From a virus: a DNA stretch of 23,285 nt. The stretch is taken from positions 1 through 23,285 of IMG/VR virus record IMGVR_UViG_3300032282_001040; one strand, written 5' to 3'. This document shows positions 1,927-21,194 of this stretch, in pieces. Under the pieces are notes generated by a model, which saw only the letters and a list, made by a program, of their open reading frames with translations, searched no databases and was not told the DNA's origin. Positions within the stretch are counted from its first letter, which is position 1. Every line of letters begins with the position of its first letter. The translations under genes and the position numbers were made by a program.

Positions 1927-4900
1927 ATGGCCAGAAAAGCAATATTAGATACCTATTATACATTTACACCATCGACTAGAACGATAGTGATTCCACGTGC
2001 AGTTCTACGTGAACGTATCGTGTTGATTACGAATGTTACCACTAATCAGGTAATCTACAACTTCTCAGACCCCAATCTGAAATTAACATCTCATTCCATC
2101 ACCACTGACGGTAATACAGGTACAACGAGTACAACTCTTGTACTGAACTACAATACCGCAGCAATGTCAGCAACCGATAAGTTGCAGATTACAATTGATG
2201 AATTTGAAGAGACTTTCAAACCGTCTGAAATTCTGACTGATCCTGTAAACAAACTTCGCACATCAACTGGTCAAGCACTGATTGATACCGACTTTGAATA
2301 TGGTCAACAAGCAACCAAATGGGAAACTGTGACGATGATTAACAATCGTCCATTTGCTTATTACAATACTGCTTTACCACTTACACTAACTGATGTTCGT
2401 GCTAACGTAGGTTCACGCCAGATTCAGATCAACACATATCCATCTGTTCCTCCTACACAGGGTACTCCTGTTTATGTACAAGATACATCATGGATTGGTG
2501 CCGAAGGTATTTTTATTGTTGATCAAGTGGATTCTGGTTCAAATACATTTACCTATACTGCTGAGTTTCCATACATCAACGCATCAGGTTCAATCATTAA
2601 CTCTGGTGTAACTACTGCTTATCAAGGTTATATTTTTGCCAATGCTTCCATTCAAATGACATCGATAACATCAGCACAATCGTTAGTGACTGTTGTTACA
2701 AATCAACCACATGGTCTGTCATTAGGTAATGAGATTGCTCTGACAGGTACTTCAGCATCAACAAATGCTCCTAACGGTTCATTCTTTGTTTGCTCAATTC
2801 CTTCAACAAACGTATTCTCATTCTATACGTACAGTGGTTCAAATACAATTCCTACTGGTTCAATTACTGGTGGTTCATTGTTTGTTCGTCCACAAGGTCA
2901 AGCACTTCATCGTGCATATGATGGTGGTATTCAATTCGGTACTAACTCACAGAGTCCTAATCAACAAATCATTCGCCAGACACGCCGTTACTTCCGTTAT
3001 CAATCAGGTAAAGGTATTCAGATGTCTACTGGTACTCTGATGAAACCAACAATCAACATCGACCAAATTACATCGGTTGGTAATTTGATTACTGTTGTTA
3101 CTAAGAACTCACATGGTATTATTAATCCTAACGTAGCATTTACAATCACTGGTTGTAATGAAACTGCTTATAACGGTACATATAACGTTGCGGCAGTTCT
3201 TGATGCTTATCGTTTCCAATATTATTCAAACACAGTACCAACAGTTGCGACAGCAAGTGGTCAATACAATCTGTCAATTACTGGTTGGTATGGTGCTGTT
3301 AATCGTATTGGTATGTTTGATAATCAAAATGGATTGTTCTGGGAGTTTGATGGACAAACATTGTATGCAGTAAGACGTTCCTCAACTTATCAATTGTCTG
3401 GTCAAATTCAAGTTGCTTCAAACAGTTCGTATGTTGCTGGTCAAACATTTAACGGTGTATCAACTGTGTTTAGTAAACAATTGACTCCTGGCGACTATGT
3501 TGTCATTAAAGGTCAATCATATCGTGTAGATTCAATTCAGTCTGATAATCAGTTACAAATTTCTCCACAGTTCCGTCACGGTACTGGTTCTTCCATAATC
3601 AATACGATTATGAGTAAGACTGTTGAGACTCGTATTCCACAATCACAATTCAATATTGATAAATTGGATGGCACAGGTCCATCTGGTTACAATGTAGACT
3701 TGAGTAAGATGCAGATGTGGTATATTGATTACTCATGGTATGGTGCTGGTTTTGTTCGTTGGGGTATTCGTGGTACAGATGGTAATGTTATCTACTGCCA
3801 CAAAATGATCAACAACAACATGAACTATGAAGCATACATGCGTTCAGGTAACTTACCTGCACGTTATGAAGCAAGTACATTTACACCATATACTTACTTA
3901 ACAGCATCATTAGATTCAGCAAACACAATAGCATACTGTAACTCTGCTGCTGCATTCCCGAACACTGGTACTCTATGGGTTCGTAATGCTGCTAATACAG
4001 AATTCATCACATACACTGGTAAGACAGCAAATACATTTACTGGTCTTGTTCGTGGTCGTGCAGGTGCTAACTCTGTTATCTTCAATACGGTTGCTAACAG
4101 CATCACAATGACAGGCGCAGATACCACAGGTATTCAGATTGGTCAATTTGTATTTGGTAATAACATTCCTAACGGTGCGTATGTAACTAATATTATTCCT
4201 AATACATCTGTCAACATCAGTTATGCTGCAACCGCTTCTGGTGTGGCATTAGCATTGTTTGCGCCATTAGGTAATACAGCACAAACATTTATTTACTCAT
4301 CGACTGCACCAACACAGATTCAGTTGCATACTACACAGTTTGCTCCTGCTTTGAGTCATTGGGGTACTTCGGTAATTATGGATGGTCGTTACGATGACGA
4401 TAAATCATTCGTATTTACCACTGGTATGCAAACAGCGATGAATGTAACTTCAACGTTTACTCCTGCTGGTGCTGTACCTGGTATGGCACTTCAAAGTTTC
4501 CGTGTATCACCTTCAGTCGGTAACGGTATTCCTGGTAATGCTGTAGGTGCCCGTGAGATTATCAATCGTATGCAGATGGTTCTGCGTCAGATTGACTTGT
4601 TGTCTGGTGGTGTGTTCCTTATAAGAATTGTTTTGAATGGTACAGTTTCAAACACAACTCCAAACTGGGCATCAGTCGGTGGTTCAAGTTTAGCACAGTA
4701 TATTAATCACACACCTAACACTTCGGTGTCTGGTGGTGAAACAATTTTCTCAGCATTTACTAACGCATCTGGTGGTATAACAAACTTTACTACAACATCA
4801 TATGACTTGCCGTTGGTTCGTGACTTGGGTAACTCTATACTTGGTGGTGGTTCTCCAGTACCAAACACAGGTATCTATCCAGATGGACCAGATATGATTA

Positions 4901-5628: not shown

Positions 5629-5858
5629 TGCCAGAACAAAAAGTCGAATCGGGTAGGATAGCAACAGGTGCTATAACTGGTGATAAAATAGCAGTTGGTG
5701 CTATTAGTGGAAATCAAATTGCTTCTGGTGCTATCAGTGGAAATCAAATTGGCACTACTGCTGTTTCTGGAAACAACATTGCTAATGGTGCAATATCAAG
5801 TGCAAAGTTGGCAGAACCAAATGCATTCGAAGATTATTTTCTTTTAGGTAGTCTCTAA
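5628..5858 (+). CDS. Short decapeptide-repeat fibre protein A1
   Basis: 76 aa, coupled to both neighbours by TAATG overlaps, with GGAG and AGGA just upstream. Residues 9-60 are repeats of about 10 residues with the pattern GAI(T/S)G(N/D)(Q/K/N)IA, for example GAITGDKIAV and GAISGNQIAS. The C-terminus is AKLAEPNAFEDYFLLG plus SL. Such repeats are found in phage fibres and probably form an intertwined beta rod. The last 16 residues recur identically in the 116-aa protein at 8637. It precedes the 841-aa glycine-rich protein and may be its stalk or adaptor (inference). Confidence 0.6.
   Translation: MPEQKVESGRIATGAITGDKIAVGAISGNQIASGAISGNQIGTTAVSGNNIANGAISSAKLAEPNAFEDYFLLGSL
5802..5849 (+). repeat. 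48-bp conserved coding repeat, copy 1
   Basis: Encodes AKLAEPNAFEDYFLLG. It differs from the copy at 8928-8975 at 5 of 48 bases by direct comparison, and all five changes are synonymous third-position changes. Confidence 0.85.
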
Positions 5859-8383
5859 TGAGTCTGAAAAGATTCACAGTCAATAGATTTTCAACACAAC
5901 GATTCACTGTACCAGGATTTGGTACTGGAGGTTCTACTCCTGCACCTGCTGGACCAACATCATATTCTGTAACACAAGTATTTTTGGGTTCACAAACTTG
6001 GACACCGCCTTCTGGCGTGACATCAGTTGATTATCTTACTGTTGCGGGTGGTGGTGGTGCTGGCGGTGGTTATGGGGGAGGTGGTGGTGGTGCTGGTGGA
6101 TTTCAAACAGGCACAGGTATTATAGTAACTCCATCTACATCATATACTATAGCAATTGGTTCTGGCGGTGCTGGTGGTATTGCAGCAACACAGCCAGGAG
6201 GATTAGGAAGCAATGGAACGAATTCTGGTATATTTACTACAAGCACAGGCACACCTTTAATTAATTGGTCACTTGGCGGCGGCGGTGGTTCTGACGGTAA
6301 TGGAGGCACACCATCTTTAGGTGGTAGAAGTGGAGGTTCTGGTGGTGGTGGTTCGGGAACTCCTGCTGCTGGTAGTTCGGGTGGTGCTGGTACTCCTGGT
6401 CAAGGTAATAGTGGCGGTACTGGGAGACATGCATCAGGATTTTTTGTAAACGGTGGAGGTGGTGGTGGTGCTGGCGGTGTTGGTGCATCAATAGCAAACA
6501 CTGGAAACTGGCCTAATGGTGTATGGGGAAATGGTGGCATAGGTATAATATCTACCATCACTGGAACATCTCTTTACTATGCTGGCGGTGGAGGTGGCGG
6601 TGGCCACGCTCCTTCTTCAACCGCAGGTGCTGGAGGTTTAGGTGGTGGAGCGGGTGGTGGTGGTGATAATAATCGAGGTGAAGGTGCTAATGGTTCATCA
6701 AGCGGTTCATTAAATTACGATGGTGGAACTGCTATAAGTAATTTGGGTGGTGGTGGTGGTGGTGCTGGTGGTCCAGCAGGAAACCGTAATGGCGGTGCTG
6801 GTGGTTCGGGCATCATCATTCTCAAATGGACACAAAGTACATCAACGAATGGCATCTTTGTATTTTCTAATACAGGTCAATTTATTGTACCAGCAAATGT
6901 ATCACAAGTAGATTATCTTGTTGTTGCTGGAGGTGGCGGTGGTGCTGATACCGATGCTGGCGGCGGTGGTGCTGGTGGTTATCTTGCTGGAAGTGGATAT
7001 CCTGTAGGTTCAAATTCTGTGATCTCAGTTATTGTTGGAGCGGGTGGTGTTGGAGGTTCGACTAACTGGACAAGAGGTGGTAACGGATCAAACTCTATAT
7101 TTGGAACAATAGTTGCTAGGGGTGGTGGTAGTGGAGGTTCCGGTTCTTTAGCAACTGGTACCGATGCATATGGTGCATCTGGAGGTTCTGGTGGTGGAGC
7201 AGGTTCAACATGGTCTACTAATCGTTTCGGTTTAGGAACGCCAGGTCAAGGAAATAATGGCGGTAATGGTTCACCAGGAAATGGTGGTGGTGGTGGAGGT
7301 GGTGCTGGCGCTGTTGGTAACAATGGTGCGCCTGGAAATGGATATGGTGGTGTAGGATTGTTTTCATCAATTTCGGGATCGAATACTGCATACAGTGATG
7401 GTGGTGGCGCAGGACATAATCCTGGCGCAACTGTTGGTGGTACAGGTCGTGGTGGTATTGGTGGTAATCCAAATGGCAATGGTACTGCCGCTCAACAAAA
7501 TAGTGGTTCTGGTGGTGGAGGTGGAGGTGGAGGTAATGGGTTAGGTGGTGCTGGCGGTTCAGGTATCGTCATCGTTTCTATTCCTACGACACAACCAAGT
7601 GTAAACAGATATATCTACACAGCAACGGGTCAATGGACTGCGCCGCCAGGAGTAACTACGGTAGATTATGTTCTAGTTGCAGGTGGCGGAGGTGGCGGTT
7701 CACAAGTTGGTGGAGGTGGAGGTGCAGGCGGTTATCTATCAGGTACAAGTTTTCCAGTAACACCAGGCCAATCTTATACGGTCGTAATTGGTGCTGGTGC
7801 CGGTGCTGGTGGAAATGGACAAGTACCATCAATTACTCTTGGTCCAATAAGAGGTTCAAATTCAACGTTTTCAGGGCTTACTGCAATTGGTGGTGGAAGA
7901 GGTTCTAGTTATCAGCAAAATTCCGCACAACCTGGTGGTTCTGGCGGAGGTGGCGGTGGTTCACCAACAAATGGTGCATCAGGAACTCCCGGTCAAGGTA
8001 ATAGTGGCGGTACAGGTTTTGATGCTTCTTGGGGTGGCGGCGGTGGTGGTGGTGCTGGTGCAGCAGGAAGTGCCGCTACGCCTAGCATTGGTGGTGCAGG
8101 CGGTGCAGGTTTATCCACAACATTAACAGGTACGCTATTATATTTTGCTGGCGGAGGTGGTGGTTGTTCAGATGCGGGAAGTGCAGGAGGAGTTGGTGGA
8201 TTAGGTGGCGGTGGTAATGGCGGCAATGGCAATGGTCCTACTGCAAAATCTCCTCCAACTTCTGGTGGAGTTGCAACGGGTGGTGGTGGAGGTGGTAATC
8301 GTGATGCTGTTAATCCCGTGACAAATGGAACTGCTGATGGTGCTGCTGGTGGATCAGGCATACTGATACTTAAACATGTATAA
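5858..8383 (+). CDS. Glycine-rich tail adhesin/fibre protein A, three modules
   Basis: 841 aa, overlapping the previous stop (TAATG). The N-terminus (MSLKRFTVNRFSTQRFT-PG) is shared with its paralogue at 9326 and contains a short basic K/R-RFT repeat, probably the attachment end. Three glycine-rich modules follow at about 39-325, 333-573 and 583-841. Each opens with a strand like W-PP-GVTSVDYL-VAGGGG, holds a long Gly-rich middle, contains one invariant GTPGQGN (residues 178, 460, 709) and closes with GGSGIIILK-like residues. Gly-rich domains with this opening are widespread in phage fibres. Gly-rich packing is known in T-even gp38 adhesins. A receptor-binding role is inferred from that and from the neighbourhood. 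Codons are mixed GGT/GGC/GGA. Confidence 0.75.
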   Translation: MSLKRFTVNRFSTQRFTVPGFGTGGSTPAPAGPTSYSVTQVFLGSQTWTPPSGVTSVDYLTVAGGGGAGGGYGGGGGGAGGFQTGTGIIVTPSTSYTIAIGSGGAGGIAATQPGGLGSNGTNSGIFTTSTGTPLINWSLGGGGGSDGNGGTPSLGGRSGGSGGGGSGTPAAGSSGGAGTPGQGNSGGTGRHASGFFVNGGGGGGAGGVGASIANTGNWPNGVWGNGGIGIISTITGTSLYYAGGGGGGGHAPSSTAGAGGLGGGAGGGGDNNRGEGANGSSSGSLNYDGGTAISNLGGGGGGAGGPAGNRNGGAGGSGIIILKWTQSTSTNGIFVFSNTGQFIVPANVSQVDYLVVAGGGGGADTDAGGGGAGGYLAGSGYPVGSNSVISVIVGAGGVGGSTNWTRGGNGSNSIFGTIVARGGGSGGSGSLATGTDAYGASGGSGGGAGSTWSTNRFGLGTPGQGNNGGNGSPGNGGGGGGGAGAVGNNGAPGNGYGGVGLFSSISGSNTAYSDGGGAGHNPGATVGGTGRGGIGGNPNGNGTAAQQNSGSGGGGGGGGNGLGGAGGSGIVIVSIPTTQPSVNRYIYTATGQWTAPPGVTTVDYVLVAGGGGGGSQVGGGGGAGGYLSGTSFPVTPGQSYTVVIGAGAGAGGNGQVPSITLGPIRGSNSTFSGLTAIGGGRGSSYQQNSAQPGGSGGGGGGSPTNGASGTPGQGNSGGTGFDASWGGGGGGGAGAAGSAATPSIGGAGGAGLSTTLTGTLLYFAGGGGGCSDAGSAGGVGGLGGGGNGGNGNGPTAKSPPTSGGVATGGGGGGNRDAVNPVTNGTADGAAGGSGILILKHV

Positions 8384-8996: not shown

Positions 8997-9326
8997 ATGC
9001 CAAGAAATTATACAATCTTAGGACAACAAAATCCAACAGCAAATACATTGACAAGACTATACGGAGTTCCTGCTGGCAACTCTGCTGTTATCTCATCAAT
9101 CAACATTGCTAATTTGGATGCCAACTCTGCTGCGTTTAGTATTGCCGCAAACTTAAATGGTGCAGTCACAGCAAATGCAAATTATCTTGCATGGCGTGTA
9201 GCAATACCAGGCAATGACTCTATTGCATTAAGTTTAGGTGTCACATTGAATGCTTCTTCACAGTTGTCTGTCAATGCTAACAGTGCAACACTTTCATTCT
9301 CTGCGTTTGGCACGGAAATCTACTAA
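8997..9326 (+). CDS. Small beta-structured virion protein
   Basis: 109 aa, preceded by AGGAAAA. It resembles a family of small structural proteins of aquatic T4-like phages that share a LY-VPAG-SAVISSI-IANL opening, a middle strand with F-IA, and a hydrophobic C-terminal strand ending near F-A-GTEI. There are no cysteines or charged clusters, so a compact beta sandwich is likely. It has no counterpart in the first cassette, where the repeat protein leads straight into the glycine-rich gene. It may decorate or cap the fibre; the function is unproven. Its stop overlaps the next start (TAATG). Confidence 0.5.
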   Translation: MPRNYTILGQQNPTANTLTRLYGVPAGNSAVISSINIANLDANSAAFSIAANLNGAVTANANYLAWRVAIPGNDSIALSLGVTLNASSQLSVNANSATLSFSAFGTEIY

Positions 9327-11812
9327 TGCCAATTCGTAAATTTACCAATGGTAGATTTAGTCTAAAACGATTCACTGCACCAGGAGTTGGTGGCGGTGGT
9401 TCTACACCTGCACCTGCTACATTTGCTACTGCACAAATATTCTTAGAATCCACCACATGGGTTCCACCTTCTGGTGTAACATCGGTTGACTATGTTGTGG
9501 TCGGTGGTGGTGGCGGCGGTGGTGGATTTTTGGGTGGTGGAGGAGGTGGAGGTGGTTATGTTGCGGGTACAGGATTATCAGTAACACCATCAACAATATA
9601 CACAATCACTATTGGTGCTGGCGGAACTGGTGGTGGTGATAATAGTGGTGTTGCTGGTTCAAATGGAACAAACTCTGGAATTTTTCTTACAAATGATGGT
9701 ACATCAGTAGTATCTTGGGCATTAGGAGGCGGAGGAGGTGGAACATATGGTTCTTCGGCCACACTTATGTCGGGTAAAAGTGGAGGTTCTGGCGGTGGCG
9801 GTGCGTCTTATGATGCTCCTGCTACGGTTACTGCTGGTTTAGGAACTCCTGGTCAAGGCAACAATGGTGCAACAGGTACAATAGGATCTGCCGCTGCAAA
9901 CTATAATGGTGGCGGAGGTGGTGGCGCAGGTAGTGCTGGTACCGCAGGTAATAACACATATCCTCATGGTGCTGGCGGTGCAGGAGTCTATTCATCTATA
10001 ACTGGTTCAAACACTGCTTATGGTGCTGGCGGTGGTGGAGGTAATGACTACAATACATCACGAACACCGGGTGGTTCAGCAAATACAGGTGGCGAAGGAG
10101 GTAATGATTCTCTATCAGCAAATGCTGGTATCATATTTACTGGTTCAGGTGGCGGTGGTTCAGGCAGAACATTAATTAGTCCCGGCGTTGGCGGTGGCGC
10201 AGGTGCTTCAGGTGTGGTTATTCTTAGGTATTATGTTTCTGCATTACCAAACACAACAGTATGGACATTCGCTAACACTCAATATTGGCAAGTACCTGTT
10301 GGAGTAACTACAGTAGATTATCTTATCGTCGGCGGTGGCGGTGGAGGTGGTTCTGGAGGTGGCGGTGGAGGTGGTGCTGGTGGATTTTTATCTGGTACAG
10401 GATTAGCAGTCGGTTCAAACGGAACAATGCTTGTTACTGTTGGATCAGGTGGTGCTGGAAGTCCAGGAACTTTAGGAAGTAATGGAAGTAATTCGGCATT
10501 CAGTACATTAGTTGCACGTGGCGGCGGTGGTGGTGGTTCAGGTATAGGTAATGGTGGACAACCTGCTTTTGCTGCTCGTTCAGGTGGTTCGGGTGGCGGT
10601 CAAGGAATGAATACTAGCACAGCAACACCAGCAACAGGAACTCCAGGACAAGGCAATAATGGAGGTATATGCAACTCTGGTGCTAGTTATGGTGCTGCTG
10701 GCGGTGGTGGTGCGGGCGCTACTGGTGGTAATGGAGCACCTGGTGATGTTGCTGGTGCAGGTGGTAATGGAACAGCATCTTCTATAACAGGAACTCCCGT
10801 AACATATGCTGGTGGCGGCGGTGGTGGTACTAATGGTGCTACTGGTGGTAATGGAGGTTCTGGTGGTGGTGGAAATGGTGGTTCACCAATTGGCCCAAAT
10901 AATTCGCCAGTAGGAACACCAGGATCAGCAGGTTTAGGTGGCGGTGGCGGTGGTGGTAGATGGACACCTTCAGCATCAGGCAGCAGTGGCGGTTCGGGCG
11001 TAGTCGTCGTCAAAGCATCTGCAACACAAAACAAATTATTAGTATTCACAGGTTCAGGTACATTCACCGCACAATCCGCAACTATAGATTATGTTCTAGT
11101 TGCTGGTGGTGGTGCAGGTGGTTCAGGTTATTCAGGCGGCGGTGGCGCAGGTGGTTATCTTGCGGGTACAGGATTTCCAGTAACTCCAGGAATAAATTAT
11201 CCTATTGTGATTGGTGCTGGTGGTGTTGGCCAATCTGCTAGTGTGATTCCTGGCGGTGGTGGTTTAAATGGATCAAATTCAACTTTCTCTTCATTAACTG
11301 CAATTGGTGGTGGTGCATCTGGTCCTGTTGGTCGTCCCGGCGGTTCTGGTGGCGGTGGTGCAACAAATCCTGCTACAACTTATCCAAACTATGGCACTGG
11401 CACTCCAGGTCAAGGTAATAATGGTGGCAATTCATCTGCTCAAACAGGTACTACAAGTGGTGGTGGTGGTGGTGGTGCAGGTGGTGTTGGAGGTTCATGT
11501 GGCACTCCTGGTAATAGAGACAATCCAGGAAATGGTGGAGCAGGAGGAGCAGGAACATCAACACCGATAACTGGCACACCGATTGTTCTTGCTGCAGGTG
11601 GTGGTGGATCAGGCGATTATCGTGGCGGTCAACCTTCAGGAGCAGGAGGTTCTGGTATTGGCGGTAATGGCGCAGGATCAGAAAACGGTAATGCTCCGGG
11701 TGGTGATGGACAAGTCAGTACAGGATCAGGCGGTGGTGGTTCATCAGGTATTTCACCTTATCCTGTTGGTGGTCGTGGAGGTTCAGGTATTGCAATTATA
11801 AAATGGACATAA
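9326..11812 (+). CDS. Glycine-rich tail adhesin/fibre protein B, three modules
   Basis: 828 aa, a paralogue of the 841-aa protein at 5858. The N-terminus matches (MPIRKFTNGRFSLKRFT-PG, then GGSTPAPA). Three modules follow at about 36-305, 311-563 and 569-828, each with a VDY(V/L)-V-GGGG opening, one GTPGQGN (residues 173, 438, 692) and a GGSG(V/I)-(V/I) closing strand. Divergence between the two proteins lies mainly in the loops and Gly-rich middles. Two such proteins may form alternative adhesins, a hetero-oligomeric fibre tip, or products of duplication used for host-range variation. The host receptor is unknown. It is directly followed by gp13. Confidence 0.75.
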   Translation: MPIRKFTNGRFSLKRFTAPGVGGGGSTPAPATFATAQIFLESTTWVPPSGVTSVDYVVVGGGGGGGGFLGGGGGGGGYVAGTGLSVTPSTIYTITIGAGGTGGGDNSGVAGSNGTNSGIFLTNDGTSVVSWALGGGGGGTYGSSATLMSGKSGGSGGGGASYDAPATVTAGLGTPGQGNNGATGTIGSAAANYNGGGGGGAGSAGTAGNNTYPHGAGGAGVYSSITGSNTAYGAGGGGGNDYNTSRTPGGSANTGGEGGNDSLSANAGIIFTGSGGGGSGRTLISPGVGGGAGASGVVILRYYVSALPNTTVWTFANTQYWQVPVGVTTVDYLIVGGGGGGGSGGGGGGGAGGFLSGTGLAVGSNGTMLVTVGSGGAGSPGTLGSNGSNSAFSTLVARGGGGGGSGIGNGGQPAFAARSGGSGGGQGMNTSTATPATGTPGQGNNGGICNSGASYGAAGGGGAGATGGNGAPGDVAGAGGNGTASSITGTPVTYAGGGGGGTNGATGGNGGSGGGGNGGSPIGPNNSPVGTPGSAGLGGGGGGGRWTPSASGSSGGSGVVVVKASATQNKLLVFTGSGTFTAQSATIDYVLVAGGGAGGSGYSGGGGAGGYLAGTGFPVTPGINYPIVIGAGGVGQSASVIPGGGGLNGSNSTFSSLTAIGGGASGPVGRPGGSGGGGATNPATTYPNYGTGTPGQGNNGGNSSAQTGTTSGGGGGGAGGVGGSCGTPGNRDNPGNGGAGGAGTSTPITGTPIVLAAGGGGSGDYRGGQPSGAGGSGIGGNGAGSENGNAPGGDGQVSTGSGGGGSSGISPYPVGGRGGSGIAIIKWT

Positions 11813-12791: not shown

Positions 12792-13682
12792 GTGGCAACT
12801 AACTTCTACTTCAATAACTTTCCTGCAAATCAGATAACCTCCGAGCAACTGCTCGTTGAGGACTTGGTTATTGAGGCATTGAAAATTTATGGCATGGATG
12901 TTTATTACATGCCACGTACCACACGTGACCAAGTAGACTATCTATTTGGTGAAGATCCATTAAAAGAATACCGAACTGCTCATCCGATTGAAATGTACCT
13001 TGAAAATGTCACGGGTATGGATGGTGAGCAAGACTTCATTTCCAAATTCGGTTTAGAAATTCGTGATGAAGCAACTCTGCTTGTATCACGCTTACGATTC
13101 CGTTATGCAGTAAATGGTTATACTCGTCCACGTGAGGGCGATTTAATATTTGTACCATTACTCAATAACTTCTTTGAGATTACATTTGTTGAACATGAAG
13201 ATCAACAAACCATGTTCTATACATTAGGTCGTGGTCGTGGTGGTAATGTATATGTGTATGCATTAAAGATGAAACAGTTTGTATTCTCTAATGAGATTGT
13301 TGAAACTGGTATCAAGATGATTGATGAACAAATTGTTGATTACTATCCAAAAACAAGACTGTTCTTATCTGCTGGTGGTACAGGAAAGTATGTAAATGAT
13401 GAAATTGTATATCAAGGTTCTAGTTTAGCATCAGCAAATGCTCAAGCAGTTGTTCATGATTATGTTGCTGGTCAGTTTATAGAAGTATATCGTGTTCAAG
13501 GTGATTTTGCAACAGGTATAGTTAAAGGTAATACAAGCAGCGCACAATGGACAATCAATGTGATTTCTGATACTGCCACAATGAATACACCATTTGAAGA
13601 TATCTTTGACAATGCTCGTATCGAAGCAGGTTCAGATGGTATCATCGACTTTACGGAACACAATCCGTTTGGAGAACCGTAA
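12792..13682 (+). CDS. 14: T4 gp14-like neck protein
   Basis: 296 aa, longer than T4 gp14 (about 256). It starts at GTG two bases after the gp13 stop; the reading MATNFYFNNF fits the family N-terminus, and no ATG lies nearby in frame. The motif LVIEALKIYGMDVYYMPR is characteristic. The protein acts with gp13 at the head-tail neck. The extra length is a C-terminal beta region at about 197-265 (YVNDEIVYQG ... FATGIVKGNTSSAQW) that resembles the C-terminal region of gp15. It overlaps gp15 by one base (TAATG), with GGAG upstream. Confidence 0.88.
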   Translation: MATNFYFNNFPANQITSEQLLVEDLVIEALKIYGMDVYYMPRTTRDQVDYLFGEDPLKEYRTAHPIEMYLENVTGMDGEQDFISKFGLEIRDEATLLVSRLRFRYAVNGYTRPREGDLIFVPLLNNFFEITFVEHEDQQTMFYTLGRGRGGNVYVYALKMKQFVFSNEIVETGIKMIDEQIVDYYPKTRLFLSAGGTGKYVNDEIVYQGSSLASANAQAVVHDYVAGQFIEVYRVQGDFATGIVKGNTSSAQWTINVISDTATMNTPFEDIFDNARIEAGSDGIIDFTEHNPFGEP

Positions 13683-14683
13683 TGTTAGGTAATGCTCAGT
13701 TCTATCACCGTACCATTCGAAAGATGGTTGTTGTATTTGGTACACTCTTTAATGACTTAGAAATTGTACGATACACTCAAGCAGGTGTGCCAAAAGAAAA
13801 ATGGAAAGTACCGCTTACATATTCACCAAAAGAACGTTTTCTAACAGCAATCACTTCTGATCCCACTCTGACTAGATCAATTAATACTATTGTTCCACGC
13901 ATGTCGTTTAACCTTGATAGTCTGGAATATGATGTTCAACGTAAACAAGTTTCAACACTTCGTAACTTTGCTCGAAACGATGACACAACTGTAAGCACAC
14001 AGTTTGTTCCTATACCATATAACTTTCAGTTTTCATTATCGATATATGTTCGTAACACTGAAGATGGTACACAGATACTAGAACAGATTCTACCATTCTT
14101 TACACCAGACTTTAATGTTACTGTAGATTTTATACCTGAAATGGATCAAAAATATAATGTACCTATTATATTAGATTCGGTAGCATCAACTGTAGAGTAT
14201 GAGGGTGCATTGAATGAGGGTTCAACACGATTGATCCTTTGGGATTTAACATTCACTGCCAAGGGTTACATATGGCCACCAGTCAAGTCCAGTAAGTATA
14301 TTAAGTCTGCAAATACCAATACTATGATTGATCTTACCACTAAAGACCTGCAAAAAGTTTATGTGGATTATGCTAATGGTAATGGTGTGTTTGCTCAAGG
14401 CGAAACACTTCGTGCAAACAATTCCGATTTGTTTGGCACTGTAGACTACTTTAGTAATACACAATCTGGCGTCTTAGTTGTGTCTGGTTCAACTAGCATC
14501 ATTAAAGTTGGTGACAATCTTACTGGTGATTATTCAGGTGCATCATATAATGTAGTTGTAACCAACATCAACGCACTTAATGTTGTACAGATACAAACTA
14601 CTACCAATCCAGGAACTGCTACTTTAGGTGAAGAATTTGGATTCATAGATACTATAAAAGAATATCCTAACATTAAATTATGA
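13682..14683 (+). CDS. 15: T4 gp15-like tail sheath stabiliser/completion protein
   Basis: 333 aa against about 272 in T4. The N-terminus FYHRTIRKMVVVFGTLFNDLEIVRY and the central VPRMSFNLDSLEYDVQRK are typical of gp15. Gp15 caps the tail tube and sheath and provides the head-docking surface. The extra C-terminal 60-70 residues (about 235-305: FAQGETLRANNSDLFGTV, then VGDNLTGDYSGASYNVVV) form a beta module like that at the gp14 C-terminus. The stop overlaps the gp16 start (ATGA). Confidence 0.88.
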   Translation: MLGNAQFYHRTIRKMVVVFGTLFNDLEIVRYTQAGVPKEKWKVPLTYSPKERFLTAITSDPTLTRSINTIVPRMSFNLDSLEYDVQRKQVSTLRNFARNDDTTVSTQFVPIPYNFQFSLSIYVRNTEDGTQILEQILPFFTPDFNVTVDFIPEMDQKYNVPIILDSVASTVEYEGALNEGSTRLILWDLTFTAKGYIWPPVKSSKYIKSANTNTMIDLTTKDLQKVYVDYANGNGVFAQGETLRANNSDLFGTVDYFSNTQSGVLVVSGSTSIIKVGDNLTGDYSGASYNVVVTNINALNVVQIQTTTNPGTATLGEEFGFIDTIKEYPNIKL

Positions 14684-15090
14684 AAAAACTAAATGCAAAT
14701 CTTTCTGAGATATTTGATGTTGAACCTATCCGAGAAGAACTAAAAGTAGAAACGTTACCTGCTGTAGTAGAGTATGCTGATCCAGTAAATGCTGATGCAG
14801 ACTTTGCACGTGAAAACATTCGTGAACTGGTAACTCAAGGTAATCAAGCGGTAAATGAGTTGATGTTAATAGCAAGAGATGGTCAACATCCACGTGCATT
14901 TGAAGTCTTATCTGGTCTAATGAAGAACTTAGCAGACATGAATAAAGATTTGCTTGAGATACAGAAACGTAAAAAAGATTTGGCACCAAAAGCGGAATCG
15001 CAAAATAATCTAAGTATAGATAAAGCAGTGTTCGTTGGTTCTACCGCAGAACTGGTAAAGATGCTTAAAACTCAAAAACAGGAAACGTAA
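14680..15090 (+). CDS. 16: Terminase small subunit (T4 gp16-like)
   Basis: 136 aa (T4 gp16 is 164). It has an acidic N-terminus (EIFDVEPIREELKVE), then a central helical core (ARENIRELVTQGNQAVNELM, then RAFEVLSGLMKNLADMNKDL) that matches the gp16 oligomerisation region, and a basic tail. It recognises the DNA concatemer and regulates the large subunit. It starts inside the gp15 stop and overlaps the next gene by one base. In T4 the large subunit follows directly; here a Dps-like gene intervenes. Confidence 0.85.
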   Translation: MKKLNANLSEIFDVEPIREELKVETLPAVVEYADPVNADADFARENIRELVTQGNQAVNELMLIARDGQHPRAFEVLSGLMKNLADMNKDLLEIQKRKKDLAPKAESQNNLSIDKAVFVGSTAELVKMLKTQKQET

Positions 15091-15524
15091 TGGAAACACT
15101 TATTAACCAACTCAAAACAATTCTAGGTACAAACTTTGCATTGTATTTGAAAGCACATGGATACCATTGGAACATTGAGGGTGCTAACTTCCCACAGTAC
15201 CATTCTTTCCTAGATTCGTTTTATAATTCTGTATTTGGTCAGACGGATGATATCGCAGAACATCTTCGTGCATTGAATTCATATGCACCTGGGTCACTTG
15301 CACGTATGCTTGAACTTGCAGACTTACAAGAAGCAACAAACATACCTGATGGTATTGCAATGATGCGTGACCTTGCTGCCGACAACGAACGTTTCATAAT
15401 GCATCTACGTGCAGGTATTGTTGCTGCTGATGGTGCTAATGAACCTGCTGTAGGTAATTTTTTACAAGACCTCTTGGGCGCACATCAAAAACATGGATGG
15501 ATGTTGAGAAGCATCATTAAATAA
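15090..15524 (+). CDS. dps: Dps/ferritin-like iron-binding protein
   Basis: 144 aa. AGGAAA at 15080-15085 and a TAATG overlap support the start. The motif YHWNIEGANFPQYHSFLDSF followed by TDDIAEHLRAL is the Dps ferroxidase signature. Aligned to E. coli Dps (H51, H63, D67, D78, E82), the equivalents here are H26, H38, D42, D53 and E57 with identical spacing, so all five metal ligands are kept. Dps proteins form 12-subunit shells that oxidise and store iron using hydrogen peroxide, and some bind DNA. This copy lacks a long Lys-rich N-terminal tail, so DNA binding by that route is unlikely. It lies between gp16 and gp17, an unusual place. It may protect phage DNA or host from oxidative damage, or package iron (inference). 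Confidence 0.88.
   Translation: METLINQLKTILGTNFALYLKAHGYHWNIEGANFPQYHSFLDSFYNSVFGQTDDIAEHLRALNSYAPGSLARMLELADLQEATNIPDGIAMMRDLAADNERFIMHLRAGIVAADGANEPAVGNFLQDLLGAHQKHGWMLRSIIK
15516..15523 (+). promoter_or_regulatory. Weak late-promoter-like box ATTAAATA before gp17
   Basis: ATTAAATA overlaps the last codons of the Dps-like gene, 4 bases before the gp17 start. Spacing is too short for a normal leader, so this may be a chance match in an A-rich junction. Confidence 0.2.
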
Positions 15525-15527
15525 AAA

Positions 15528-17159
15528 ATGGATGACGGATACCTTGGTAATGCTAGGCTCAAAAGAACGGGCACTGAACTATCCTATACTGAAGAACAAG
15601 TATTAGAAATTGCAAAGTGTGCAGATGATCCTGTATACTTCATTAAAACTTACGTCAAGATTGTCAACGTTGACCGTGGCCTTATTCCATTTGATATGTG
15701 GAATTTTCAAGAGGACATGGTACGTACCTTTCATGAGAATCGTTTTACCATTGCTAAGATGCCTCGACAAGTTGGTAAAACAACCACAACTGTTGGTTAC
15801 ATGCTTTGGGCAGCAATCTTTAATGAAGAATATACAATCGGTATTCTTGCTAACAAAGGACAGTTGGCACGTGACATTCTAAGTCGTATTCAAAAAGCAT
15901 ATGAATACTTGCCTCAGTGGCTCCAACAAGGTATCATGACATGGAACAAAGGTTCTTTAGAGTTAGAGAACGGTTCCAAGATATTTGCGTATGCAACATC
16001 AGCAGCAGGTGTTCGTGGTGGTACATATAACTTAATCTTCCTTGATGAGTTTGCGTTCGTTCCACACAACATGGCAGTTGAGTTCTTTACGTCAACGTAT
16101 CCTGTTATCTCTTCTGGTCAAACATCTAAAGTAATTATTGTTTCAACTCCTAATGGATTGAATCTATTTTACAAGATGTGGACAGATGCTATTGAACACC
16201 GTTCCACATATAAGACAGTTGAAGTTCACTGGTCACAAGTACCAGGCCGTGATGCCAAATGGAAAGAAGAAACGATACGGAACACTTCTGAAGAACAGTT
16301 CCGACAAGAGTTTGAAACAGAGTTTATTGGTTCGAATGCAACACTCATTTCTGGTGCAAAACTCAGATCATTAGCATTCCATGAACCTATAGGTGTGGAA
16401 GATAACCTTTACATCTATGAACAACCTATACCTGGTCATCTATACATTGCCACGGTAGACTGTTCGGAAGGTGTGAACATGGACTATTCTACCATTAATG
16501 TTCTTGATGCCACACAGGCACCATATAAACAAGTTGCACGATACCGAAACAATAAACTACCACTGTTGTTCTTTCCGACAGTCATTTATTCTATAGCAAA
16601 ACGGTACAATGAAGCATTCGTTTTGGTAGAAACTAACAATATTGGTCAGCAAGTGGTAGACATTCTTCACTATGACCTAGAGTATGAGAACATATACAAG
16701 ACCGAACAGCACCACATTAAAGGCCAGTCCATCTCTTCTGGATTTAAAAGATCAACTTCGTTTGGTATTAAGACTACCAAGTCAGTCAAAAAGATTGGTT
16801 GTGCCAACTTAAAAACTCTGGTAGAGAACGATAAGTTGATTATTAATGACTTTGACACCATCAATGAGATGAATACCTTTGTCCGTGTAAGGGATTCTTA
16901 TGCTGCCGAAGAAGGCAGCAATGATGATATTGTAATGGGATTGGTATTGTTTTCTTGGTTGACAGCACAGTCTTTCTTCAAAGATTCTACCAATATTGAC
17001 ATCCGTAAGATGATGTTGGACGAACAGAATATGTTGATTGATGAGACCATGACTCCATTTGGATTTATAGAGAATGGGTTGCAGGAAGAAGTTGAGGATG
17101 ATGGTGATGACCGCTGGCACTTTGCTGAAAAGCGAGGGTTTCCAATGTCAAGGTTGTAA
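15528..17159 (+). CDS. 17: Terminase large subunit (T4 gp17-like)
   Basis: 543 aa (T4 gp17 is 610). The N-terminal ATPase has Walker A PRQVGKTT at residues 79-86 and Walker B NLIFLDEFAF with D173 and catalytic E174, followed by the coupling motif VSTPNGLN. The C-terminal RNase H-like nuclease shows DCSEG (D311), VETNN (E368) and NDD (D466/D467), corresponding to the acidic triad of T4 gp17. The protein packages DNA through the portal and cuts the concatemer. It starts 3 bases after the Dps-like gene. The ribosome site is weak (GAGAAG further upstream), so coupling may matter. The shorter length is mostly at the N-terminus. Confidence 0.95.
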   Translation: MDDGYLGNARLKRTGTELSYTEEQVLEIAKCADDPVYFIKTYVKIVNVDRGLIPFDMWNFQEDMVRTFHENRFTIAKMPRQVGKTTTTVGYMLWAAIFNEEYTIGILANKGQLARDILSRIQKAYEYLPQWLQQGIMTWNKGSLELENGSKIFAYATSAAGVRGGTYNLIFLDEFAFVPHNMAVEFFTSTYPVISSGQTSKVIIVSTPNGLNLFYKMWTDAIEHRSTYKTVEVHWSQVPGRDAKWKEETIRNTSEEQFRQEFETEFIGSNATLISGAKLRSLAFHEPIGVEDNLYIYEQPIPGHLYIATVDCSEGVNMDYSTINVLDATQAPYKQVARYRNNKLPLLFFPTVIYSIAKRYNEAFVLVETNNIGQQVVDILHYDLEYENIYKTEQHHIKGQSISSGFKRSTSFGIKTTKSVKKIGCANLKTLVENDKLIINDFDTINEMNTFVRVRDSYAAEEGSNDDIVMGLVLFSWLTAQSFFKDSTNIDIRKMMLDEQNMLIDETMTPFGFIENGLQEEVEDDGDDRWHFAEKRGFPMSRL

Positions 17160-17214: not shown

Positions 17215-18912
17215 ATGGCATTTCAATTATCACCCGGAGTAAATGTATCAGAGATCGATCTGACTACAGTTATTCCTTCCGTTGCCACCTCTATTGGTGC
17301 TTTCGTAGGACCTTTTGCTTGGGGACCATGCGGTGAAGTTACAACTATTTCGGATGAAACACGCTTAGTAAGCAGATTCGATAAACCAGACTCAACAAAT
17401 TATGAATATTGGTTCTCAGCAGCAAATTTTCTTGCATACGGAAACAACTTAAAAGTCGTTCGTGCATTTTCAACAGTAGACACAAGAAACGCCACAGCAA
17501 ATGGCACAGCAGTTCTGATTAGAAATCAAGATGATTGGACAGCAAATCAACAAGGTAACGCAGATGGTTCCTTTGGTGGTTGGGCTGCTCGTTATCCTGG
17601 TGAACTAGGCAACTCATTAAAAGTATCTATTGCTGACGGCAATACATATACTGGCTGGGCATATGCTTCTCAGTTCACTGCAAAACCAAATACATCATCT
17701 TATGTGTTCAATAAGAGCGGTTTAACTTCAAACGATGAAGTGCATATCGTAGTTGTTGATGAAGATGGTATGTTCTCTGGTCAATCAGGAACAGTTTTGG
17801 AAAAATACGCATTTGTTTCTAAAGCATCCGATGCAAAAGATGATTCTGGCAATTCAAATTACTATAAAAATGTAATTGCTGCACAATCACAATATATTCA
17901 TTGGGTATCACATCCTGCGACTGCTAACATGTCGTCTGGTACATCCTGGGGTACAGCAGCAAATGTTTCAGTGTTCAAATCACTGACAGCAGCACAAACC
18001 GCATCACTTGCAGCAGGTACAGTTGGTACAGTAAGCACAGCAAATGTTACCGTTGGTTGGGATCAGTTTAAAAATGCCGAGTCGGTTGATATCTCTTTAG
18101 CAGTTACTGGTACAGGCGATTCAACTATTGCCACTTATGTTATCAGCAACATTGCAGAAGGTCGTAAAGATTGTGTAGCATTCATTTCGCCACCTAAATC
18201 TAACGTTGTTAATAATCCAGGTAACGAAGCATCGGCAGTTACTACATGGCGTAATGCATTGACTTCAACTTCTTATGCAGTTGTTGACTCTGGTTACAAA
18301 TACCAGTACGACAAATATGCTGATCTATATCGTTGGATTCCACTGAACGGTGACATTGCTGGTCTATGTGCTCGTACAGATAATGAACGTGATCCTTGGT
18401 TCTCACCAGGTGGTTTGAATCGTGGTGTAATTAAAAATGTAGTTAAACTTGCTTGGAATCCAACTAAAACTGATCGTGACACACTGTATAATGCAGGTGT
18501 TAATCCAGTTGTTTCGTTCCCAGGCGATGGTACAATTCTATTTGGCGATAAAACAATGTTGTCGAAACCAAGTGCATTTGATCGCATCAATGTTCGTCGT
18601 TTGTTTATTGTACTTGAAAAAGCAATTAGTCGTGCAGCACGTTTCTCGTTGTTTGAATTTAATGACCAGTTCACACGTGCTCAGTTTGTGGCAATCGTTG
18701 AACCATTCCTGCGTGATGTACAAGGTCGTCGTGGTATCACTGACTTCCGTGTAGTCTGCGATGAAACAAACAATACTGGACAAGTTATTGATTCCAATCA
18801 GTTTGTTGGTGACATTTATATTAAACCAGCACGTTCTATCAACTTCATTCAATTGAACTTTGTCGCCGTTCGTACAGGCGTATCGTTTAATGAAGTTGTA
18901 GGATCGGTCTAA
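17215..18912 (+). CDS. 18: Contractile tail sheath protein (T4 gp18-like)
   Basis: 565 aa (T4 gp18 is 659). The N-terminus (LSPGVNVSEIDLTTVIPSVA, then IGAFVGPFAWGPCGE) and the C-terminal QLNFVAVRTGVSFNEV are sheath signatures. The conserved inner core includes PWFSPGGLNRGVI and a KTMLSKPSAFDRINVRRLFI segment near 440-465. The shorter length probably reflects smaller outer domains. The sheath contracts to drive the tube into the host. It has the strongest ribosome site in the window. Next comes the tube gene, as in T4. Confidence 0.95.
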   Translation: MAFQLSPGVNVSEIDLTTVIPSVATSIGAFVGPFAWGPCGEVTTISDETRLVSRFDKPDSTNYEYWFSAANFLAYGNNLKVVRAFSTVDTRNATANGTAVLIRNQDDWTANQQGNADGSFGGWAARYPGELGNSLKVSIADGNTYTGWAYASQFTAKPNTSSYVFNKSGLTSNDEVHIVVVDEDGMFSGQSGTVLEKYAFVSKASDAKDDSGNSNYYKNVIAAQSQYIHWVSHPATANMSSGTSWGTAANVSVFKSLTAAQTASLAAGTVGTVSTANVTVGWDQFKNAESVDISLAVTGTGDSTIATYVISNIAEGRKDCVAFISPPKSNVVNNPGNEASAVTTWRNALTSTSYAVVDSGYKYQYDKYADLYRWIPLNGDIAGLCARTDNERDPWFSPGGLNRGVIKNVVKLAWNPTKTDRDTLYNAGVNPVVSFPGDGTILFGDKTMLSKPSAFDRINVRRLFIVLEKAISRAARFSLFEFNDQFTRAQFVAIVEPFLRDVQGRRGITDFRVVCDETNNTGQVIDSNQFVGDIYIKPARSINFIQLNFVAVRTGVSFNEVVGSV

Positions 18913-19526: not shown

Positions 19527-21194
19527 ATGGCAATAAAATTATTCGGCTTTACTTTAGGCTCAAAAGATGTCGTTCAGCCAGAAAAACCTGAACAGGCATC
19601 TTTTGCCTTGCCTACTGCTGCTATCGATGACGGTGCAGTTACCGTTACTCAAAATGCATACTATGGTACGTATGTTGACTTAGAAGGTTCAGTTCGTAAT
19701 GAGATTGAACTTATCACACGTTACCGTGAGATGTCCAATCATCCAGAATTGGATATGGCAATCGATGAGATTGTCAACGAAGCAATCTCCCATGATGAAG
19801 CAGGTAAAGTTTGTGATATCGTAATGGATAATCTCAAACAACCTGAATCAATCAAAAAGAAAATCAATGAAGAGTTCCAAAACATCTTGAAGATGTTAAA
19901 CTTTTCTAATCTTGCAGATGACTTATTCAAACGTTGGTACATTGATGGTAGATTATTTTACCACGTTGTTGTCAATGATAAGAATCCAAAAGAAGGTATA
20001 CAAGAACTAAGATACATTGATCCACGTAAGATTCGTAAAGTCCGTGAGATTAAAAAAGATCGTGATCCTAAAACAGGTGCATCGATTATTGTATCTACCG
20101 CAGAGTATTATGTCTACAATGATAAAGGACAGACCACTCAAACATTTACATCAAATGTAGGTCAAGGCATTCGTATTGCACCAGATTCAATCATCAATGT
20201 GAACTCTGGTTTGATGGATGCAAAGAATACATTTGTTATTTCATTTCTACATAAGGCAATCAAACCACTCAATCAACTTAGAATGATTGAAGATGCGATT
20301 GTTATCTATCGTATTAGTCGTGCACCTGAGCGCCGTATATTCTACATCGACGTTGGTAACTTACCACGTGGTAAAGCAGAACAGTATCTCCGTGATGTTA
20401 TGGTCAAGTATCGTAACAAGATGGTCTATGATGCTAACACCGGTGAACTCCGTGATGAACGTAAACACATGTCAATGCTTGAAGATTTCTGGTTGCCTCG
20501 CCGTGAAGGCGGTAAAGGTACAGAGATTACTACATTACCAGCAGGTCAAAACCTAGGTGAATTGGAAGATGTTAAATACTTCCAGAAGAAACTACTCCAA
20601 TGTTTGAATGTACCATATTCACGCCTTGAAGAGAACGGCGGTGGTTTTGCTGGCATGGGTCGTTCACAAGAAGTTACCCGTGATGAATTAAAGTTTGCCA
20701 AGTTTGTTACCAGACTTCGTAACAAGTTTACACAACTGTTTGATCATGCACTGCGTACTCAATTGGTACTCAAAGGTATTTGTACATCGGAAGAGTGGGA
20801 AGATTTCAAAGAAGATATCTACTATGACTTCCAGAAAGACAACAACTTTACTGAGATGCGAGCCTCAGAGTTGTTGCAGAATCGTTTACAGATGTTGCAA
20901 TTGGTTGATCCATATATCGGTAGGTACTTCTCTAATCACTACATTAAGAATAAGATTCTAATGATGACAGATGAAGAGATTGAGGAAATGGATAAACAAC
21001 TCGCAGAAGAAAAAGATACATTACCTGATGACATGCAAGGTCCAGTAATGAATCAACCTCCTGGTGAAGATCCTAATGAGTTCCCACCAGAAGATAACAC
21101 TACAGAAAATACCGAAGAAGAGGAGTCATTGACGCCTGGTCTTGACAAAGAGGTAGATAAGTCTGTAGTGAGTATAAATACTAAACGCAAATAG
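19527..21194 (+). CDS. 20: Portal vertex protein (T4 gp20-like)
   Basis: 555 aa (T4 gp20 is 524). AGGA at 19513-19516 precedes the start. Signatures are YREMSNHPELDMAIDEIVNE (near residue 70), YRISRAPERRIFYIDVGNLP (near 261) and PAGQNLGELEDVKYFQKKLL (near 338). The C-terminal 50 residues are acidic and Pro-rich. The protein is a dodecameric ring through which gp17 pumps DNA, and it nucleates prohead assembly. A perfect TATAAATA lies inside its last codons, serving the next gene. Confidence 0.95.
   Translation: MAIKLFGFTLGSKDVVQPEKPEQASFALPTAAIDDGAVTVTQNAYYGTYVDLEGSVRNEIELITRYREMSNHPELDMAIDEIVNEAISHDEAGKVCDIVMDNLKQPESIKKKINEEFQNILKMLNFSNLADDLFKRWYIDGRLFYHVVVNDKNPKEGIQELRYIDPRKIRKVREIKKDRDPKTGASIIVSTAEYYVYNDKGQTTQTFTSNVGQGIRIAPDSIINVNSGLMDAKNTFVISFLHKAIKPLNQLRMIEDAIVIYRISRAPERRIFYIDVGNLPRGKAEQYLRDVMVKYRNKMVYDANTGELRDERKHMSMLEDFWLPRREGGKGTEITTLPAGQNLGELEDVKYFQKKLLQCLNVPYSRLEENGGGFAGMGRSQEVTRDELKFAKFVTRLRNKFTQLFDHALRTQLVLKGICTSEEWEDFKEDIYYDFQKDNNFTEMRASELLQNRLQMLQLVDPYIGRYFSNHYIKNKILMMTDEEIEEMDKQLAEEKDTLPDDMQGPVMNQPPGEDPNEFPPEDNTTENTEEEESLTPGLDKEVDKSVVSINTKRK
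21173..21180 (+). promoter_or_regulatory. Exact T4-type late promoter TATAAATA before gp67
   Basis: This 8-base match to the T4 late consensus lies within the end of gp20, 22 bases before the gp67 ATG, with an AGGAG ribosome site at 21193-21197. It would drive the prohead core and protease genes independently of the portal. Confidence 0.6.

Follow-up and report, generated by a model that had tools for sequence, protein, structure and literature searches.

A complete gene for a Dps-type mini-ferritin lies between the two terminase subunit genes of the window analysed here, a stretch of viral DNA of 23,285 nucleotides (IMG/VR record IMGVR_UViG_3300032282_001040). The reading that we consider probable is that a large aquatic group of T4-like phages keeps this gene as cargo in its gp16-gp17 slot, and that the product is an iron/peroxide ferroxidase acting in trans. 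The dps gene (15090..15524, + strand), recognised from its ORF, profile matches and predicted fold, is intact and complete from the ATG start to the TAA stop and encodes 144 aa. It is preceded by a gp16-like small terminase subunit (14680..15090, +; PF11053 5e-7, phrog_445 4e-33) and followed by a gp17-like large terminase subunit (15528..17159, +; PF03237 6e-29, PF17289 2e-13). Farther out, a gp15-like tail sheath stabiliser (13682..14683, +; PF16724 2e-65) belongs to the upstream run of structural genes and a gp18-like tail sheath (17215..18912, +; phrog_23 1e-136) is the downstream neighbour; the gp13-gp15 and gp18-gp20 flanks of gp16 and gp17 were also identified by profiles. The preliminary description had placed a complete Dps gene, tightly coupled, between both terminase subunits, and these profile matches and the sequence itself confirm it: the TAA of gp16 (15088-15090) overlaps the ATG of dps (15090) by 1 base, as TAATG, and a gap of 3 nt separates the dps stop (15524) from the gp17 start (15528).

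A search of the window sequence found no clear late promoter near dps, a point against the reading that we prefer. The late promoter motif TATAAATA occurs only once in the window, at 21173, away from dps and at a frequency that corresponds to chance, and sigma-70-like and terminator-like sites around dps are present at chance level only. Between structural genes of the window, two further ORFs, one of 841 aa (5858-8383) and one of 828 aa (9326-11812), carry repeated Gly_rich_2 domains (PF21722) and are probably tail-fibre or adhesin-like.

The window protein matches PF00210 (E=2e-22), phrog_3636 along its full length (residues 2-143, E=3.6e-31) and the solved Dps chain 8ff9 of the PDB (E=1e-21), and one scan of IMG/VR returned 275 confirmed viral relatives; taken together, these matches indicate that its identity as a Dps is not due to chance. 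The structure was predicted with AlphaFold2 as a single chain, using a 34-row alignment (pLDDT 96.6, pTM 0.91). Predicted helices span residues 2-28, 34-61, 70-76, 88-115 and 119-143, that is, a four-helix bundle whose BC loop contains a short helix (70-76), a feature typical of Dps. When the predicted structure was compared with solved ones, the best PDB matches given by Foldseek were all of the Dps family (TM 0.91-0.96) and VIA-align reached Z scores of up to 23.5. The four-helix ferritin fold, on which the preliminary description had staked its assignment, was therefore recovered.

Concerning the ferroxidase site, the codons of H26 (15165..15167), H38 (15201..15203), D42 (15213..15215), D53 (15246..15248) and E57 (15258..15260), all on the + strand, place the ligands at a spacing of 12/4/11/4, the same as in E. 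coli Dps, where we take their counterparts to be H51, H63, D67, D78 and E82. A canonical Dps ferroxidase centre consists of two His, two Asp and one Glu (PMC6675082). From sequence and alignments, H26, H38, D53 and E57 are unchanged in 80/80 diverse phage Dps, with the inter-subunit core at the family spacing. Only 13 of the 144 columns are invariant to at least 98.5% in 80 dereplicated phage Dps, and they include H26, W27, H38, D53 and E57; if all columns are considered equal, the chance that the four ligands all fall among these 13 is about 4e-5.

Position 42 behaves differently. In the window protein D42 provides the fifth carboxylate, that of site B, while in the alignments this is a minority state: the 80 diverse phage Dps have Gly in 54 cases, Asp in 9, Asn in 8 and Glu in 2, the 143 unique close relatives have Asp in 35 and Glu in 3, and the nearest bacterial relatives have mostly Glu or Met. 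An Asn is found at the site-B position 67 of NpDps4 (PMC6675082). The earlier claim of five ligands at the E. coli spacing thus holds for the window Dps, but it cannot be extended to the family, in which D42 is not conserved; judging from the alignments, the phage Dps family retains a four-ligand core, often without the site-B carboxylate. Most relatives carry Gly or Asn at position 42, so that their chemistry may differ from the canonical one, which speaks against the reading that we prefer. In a comparison of the pore, N123 aligned with D138 of MsDps2, and Asp occurs there in 36 of 80 phage Dps, a correspondence that is suggestive only.

To describe how common and how fixed this arrangement is, 80 of the 275 relatives were retained (69-97% identity), and all their loci with visible neighbours have the same gene order as the window. 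With scans pooled, the order gp16-dps-gp17 was found in 268/268 IMG/VR loci where all three genes are visible, although these loci are not all independent, because different queries sometimes retrieved the same contig. Both gaps measure at most 30 nt in 261 of the 268; in the seven loci with wider gaps, those that were read hold extra inserts, for example homing endonucleases or a Gly-rich ORF. The terminase-linked Dps sequences comprise 143 distinct proteins. Since scans based on Dps select for Dps, the survey was redone with gp17 as anchor, and dps was present in 71 of 72 new loci of the window type, the remaining one being short of upstream sequence. With another gp17 type as anchor (identity about 45%), dps was present in 25 loci and gp16 led directly into gp17 in 24; four loci have another gene in the slot (in those read, SNase, PF00565), and the remaining ones have no recognised gp16 or no upstream sequence. 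From this survey of gp16-gp17 neighbourhoods it is evident that dps is recurrent in the slot, and that close relatives have an intact copy, where the preliminary description had asked whether it might be absent or broken.

Some individual loci carry further elements. In L235, dps and gp17 are separated by a Gly_rich_2 ORF related to those of the window, and a putative homing endonuclease ORF of about 190 aa occupies the same place in L287 (3436-4008), where it has a NUMOD3 motif, and in L296 (1873-2439). In L183 (5440-7611) the frame of gp17 is broken by an insert resembling an intein or a homing-endonuclease element.

The region from g15 to g18 was reportedly described by Millard in 2009 as a hyperplastic region of cyanomyoviruses. 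In these phages it is hyper-variable, and the gp16-gp17 junction is one of four hot spots of gene gain (Clokie 2010, PMC2984593; Sullivan 2010, PMC3037559). The dps gene corresponds to slot cargo of this kind, being inserted between gp16 and gp17 and missing there in relatives. In cultured relatives, other cargo found in the slot includes a halogenase and a dioxygenase in HTVC008M, an F5/8 C domain in Melnitz and a 70-aa ORF in Mosig. A staphylococcal-nuclease-like gene of 142 aa, with no dps there, occupies the slot in L349, L357 and L366 (probably also in L351), and in L332 an insert of 378 aa (2440-3576; T4 gp9/10 N-terminal domain, PF07880) lies between gp15 and gp16, with the gp16-gp17 junction empty.

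Larger records made it possible to look for Dps elsewhere in the genome. It is present in 11 of 12 such records, in seven of them at the terminase, and this set, six of which were chosen through Dps itself and six through gp17, is not a census. Of the records chosen through gp17, five contain Dps; in the sixth, a 61-kb fragment (G369) that holds L332, none was found, and loss and relocation look alike in such a fragment. No Dps was found in seven slot-empty or related fragments, which, being incomplete, give no indication in either direction. In G008, which has an SNase in its terminase slot, Dps (L496:4559-4999) is placed between regA and the DNA polymerase, near the sliding clamp, while in G007, G360 and G361 it lies within a cluster of internal-protein genes, and gp16 adjoins gp17 in the last two; each of these four genomes has one Dps copy. 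Dps genes also occur in two contigs of jumbo size, L437 (316-kb) and L473 (300-kb), and in the former the gene is near ORFs with capsid-targeting-like starts (MKYFDLFESS). The idea of a picocyanobacterial phage was considered and rejected, as no psbA-family match was found in two sister records or in six large ones that carry dps at the terminase.

We also evaluated the history of the gene. In a tree that took in the 26 nearest bacterial Dps, the 17 sampled terminase-linked sequences form their own clade (98/99), apart from these bacterial proteins and from the S-SRM01 type. A wider tree, which also took in 29 Dps located elsewhere in their genomes, contained another terminase-linked group of 24 rows that is more divergent; here the phage Dps largely hold together, with a support of 88, which is not strong, and the terminase label has to change twice, suggesting that dps entered the slot once or twice. 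In the gp16 tree a single clade (99) takes in every row bearing dps, and L332, whose slot is empty, is nested within it. Both gp17 types are found with dps and are intermingled in the dps tree, which means that dps recombines relative to gp17. For dps the median dN/dS is 0.146 (3,597 pairs of close relatives), and no internal stop was present in the first 80 loci read; the gene is under purifying selection, old and kept in an old, conserved neighbourhood. Because the tight coupling is maintained in hundreds of relatives under this selection, the gene is not recent junk, as the preliminary description had argued. Two copies look damaged, one by an apparent frameshift that leaves 110 aa (L256:3676-4008) and one by an internal deletion that removes about 20 aa (L074:3643-4011), and an assembly error is possible in both. 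Capture from a known bacterium was examined as well: a scan of genome contigs gave 11 relatives, all at or below 37% identity, and a search of 349 genomes within one phylum gave a best identity of 40%, so that neither of these two non-exhaustive searches yielded a donor.

On the reading that we prefer, Dps would be made late, together with structural and packaging proteins, and would assemble in the infected cell into Dps shells, presumably 12-mers. These shells would bind Fe(II) at the inter-subunit site formed by H26, H38, D53 and E57 and would oxidise it, with H2O2 as the preferred oxidant. Both Fenton reactants would be removed in this way, and the phage would benefit because its DNA and the metabolism of the host would be protected until lysis. 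Since such a protein acts in trans, its exact position in the genome should not be critical, and the terminase site is probably a convenient place for co-expression, with no part in packaging. A gene of the rubrerythrin family is found in two phages with terminase-linked dps (G005, L498:4234-4662; G003, G003:74857-75195). The mini-ferritin reading fits best because it accommodates the invariant core, an acidic protein without tails, the freedom of position and the company of rubrerythrin.

The main rival, although we consider it unlikely, is that Dps is a head component, which would enter the prohead core, be packaged with the DNA and be delivered to the next host or, in a variant of the same idea, stay inside the capsid as a sink for iron and ROS; assembly would then be the reason why it is expressed along with terminase and head genes. 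In T4, ten residues of the capsid-targeting type suffice to direct proteins, even foreign ones, into the head (PMC9026906), and in sister phages Dps is found among genes with starts of this T4 type; in G007, for instance, it adjoins genes whose products begin with MKAYTQFLKE and MISFKEYILNEA. Across 35 loci in which Dps is not at the terminase, capsid-targeting-like starts were counted in 33 of 248 neighbouring ORFs, against 4/172 in an internal control within the same loci, 5/391 for the terminase-linked loci and 10/353 for those of the S-SRM01 type, a ratio that is descriptive only, because the pattern was drawn up after examples had been seen. An ORF of 578 aa (L478:3644-5377) carries a full Dps domain (residues 122-258) downstream of MKTFSKLQEA and has several further (L/I/V)xE sites, so that it is possibly a head polyprotein releasing a Dps; BFVD also contains Dps folds within long ORFs, some of them named prohead protease. 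The window Dps, however, starts METLINQLKTILG, opening directly with helix A and having neither an N-terminal capsid targeting sequence nor an (L/I)xE protease site; the alignment of its close relatives with it begins at residue 1, and the neighbours of terminase-linked Dps are not enriched in the motif. The context in sister phages lends plausibility to a virion role in those relatives and, together with the great constancy of terminase linkage in the window group, leaves room for one here; for the carriage of iron into virions, which the preliminary description had suggested, it gives an indirect hint. Unlikely too, in our opinion, is a combined reading in which a large group of aquatic T4-like phages has one Dps gene that moves among the terminase slot, the replication module and the capsid-internal cluster, with the protein of some lineages targeted to the head and delivered with the DNA; if it were true, virions would carry an iron/peroxide-handling protein as cargo.

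Direct binding of phage DNA, which Dps would protect or condense like the E. coli protein, is suggested by the family name and by the PHROG label 'DNA binding protein', but it is very unlikely. In the prediction, helix A begins at residue 2 and helix D extends to residue 143 of the 144, so that the basic N- or C-terminal tail of DNA-binding Dps of the E. coli type is absent, and the net charge is about -6; in 138 relatives it goes from -4 to -10, with a median of -7 and a pI of about 5.2. Non-binding yet protective Dps are known, such as the Agrobacterium Dps entry among the structure matches. The protection of DNA that the preliminary description had suggested is thus unlikely to come about through binding, since the window Dps is acidic and without tails.

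The near-invariable position between the subunits in the window group could also mean that Dps is a partner of the terminase, as a scaffold or as a regulator of gp16 or gp17, in agreement with the role tied to the packaging motor proposed earlier. This we consider highly improbable, because the slot, a hot spot for cargo, can be empty or filled by SNase, halogenase or other genes in sister phages, and because dps does not track gp17, its phylogeny being independent of the two gp17 types; in other genomes Dps is moreover encoded far from the terminase. That dps is a passenger without current function is hardly credible, since, although the slot is a documented hot spot of gene gain in marine T4-like phages (PMC3037559, PMC2984593) and the two damaged-looking copies would agree with it, the dN/dS of 0.15, the uninterrupted frames and the invariant ferroxidase core speak against it.

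Phage Dps are already known, for example in Gratiaviridae and other gut phages (PMC8008677) and in Lactobacillus phages (PMC6669764), and the unusual part is the genomic setting, which is well supported. In the open-access literature we found no published account of a terminase-linked Dps group and none of Dps with capsid-targeting sequences, and absence there is no proof; the literature that we found treats phage Dps as scattered cases only. What seemed an oddity becomes a pattern, in which Dps recurs across a widespread group of aquatic T4-like phages, mostly inside the packaging operon. The management of iron and peroxide by phages during infection and the existence of a virion iron protein both become directly testable, and terminase-linked, replication-linked, capsid-cluster-linked and polyprotein versions of Dps are ready for comparison.

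Among known systems, the hyperplastic region of cyanomyoviruses shares the slot and the host-like insertions, but its content is variable, while in the window group, which is wide and recombining, the slot has a single fixed gene. The T4 proteins IPI-III and Alt carry a capsid targeting sequence (PMC9026906, PMC3012670); sister-phage Dps is found among genes with such N-termini, while the window protein has no such sequence. The phage Dps of PHROG 3636, which come from phiEco32-like and Grimontviridae phages (7-11, SE131), S-SRM01, Lactobacillus myophages and gut Gratiaviridae, are likewise stand-alone and phage-borne, and the same oxidative or iron role has been proposed for them (PMC8008677, PMC6669764), but they are only 24-33% identical to the window Dps; unlike in the window, the gene follows thyX near phoH in phage 7-11, and it lies near a porin gene in Synechococcus phage S-SRM01, whose terminase region has no dps. 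Bacterial Dps mini-ferritins (PA0962 of P. aeruginosa, 8ff9; Brevibacillus, 1n1q; T. elongatus, 2c41; Listeria innocua) have the same fold, with a Foldseek TM of 0.94-0.96, the short BC helix and the H/H/D/E ferroxidase ligands in common with the window Dps, which differs from them in its identity of at most 40% to the nearest cellular sequence found and in having no N-terminal tail, while the phage group, in the 17 members sampled, is set apart by its own clade and by a position 42 that often has no carboxylate.
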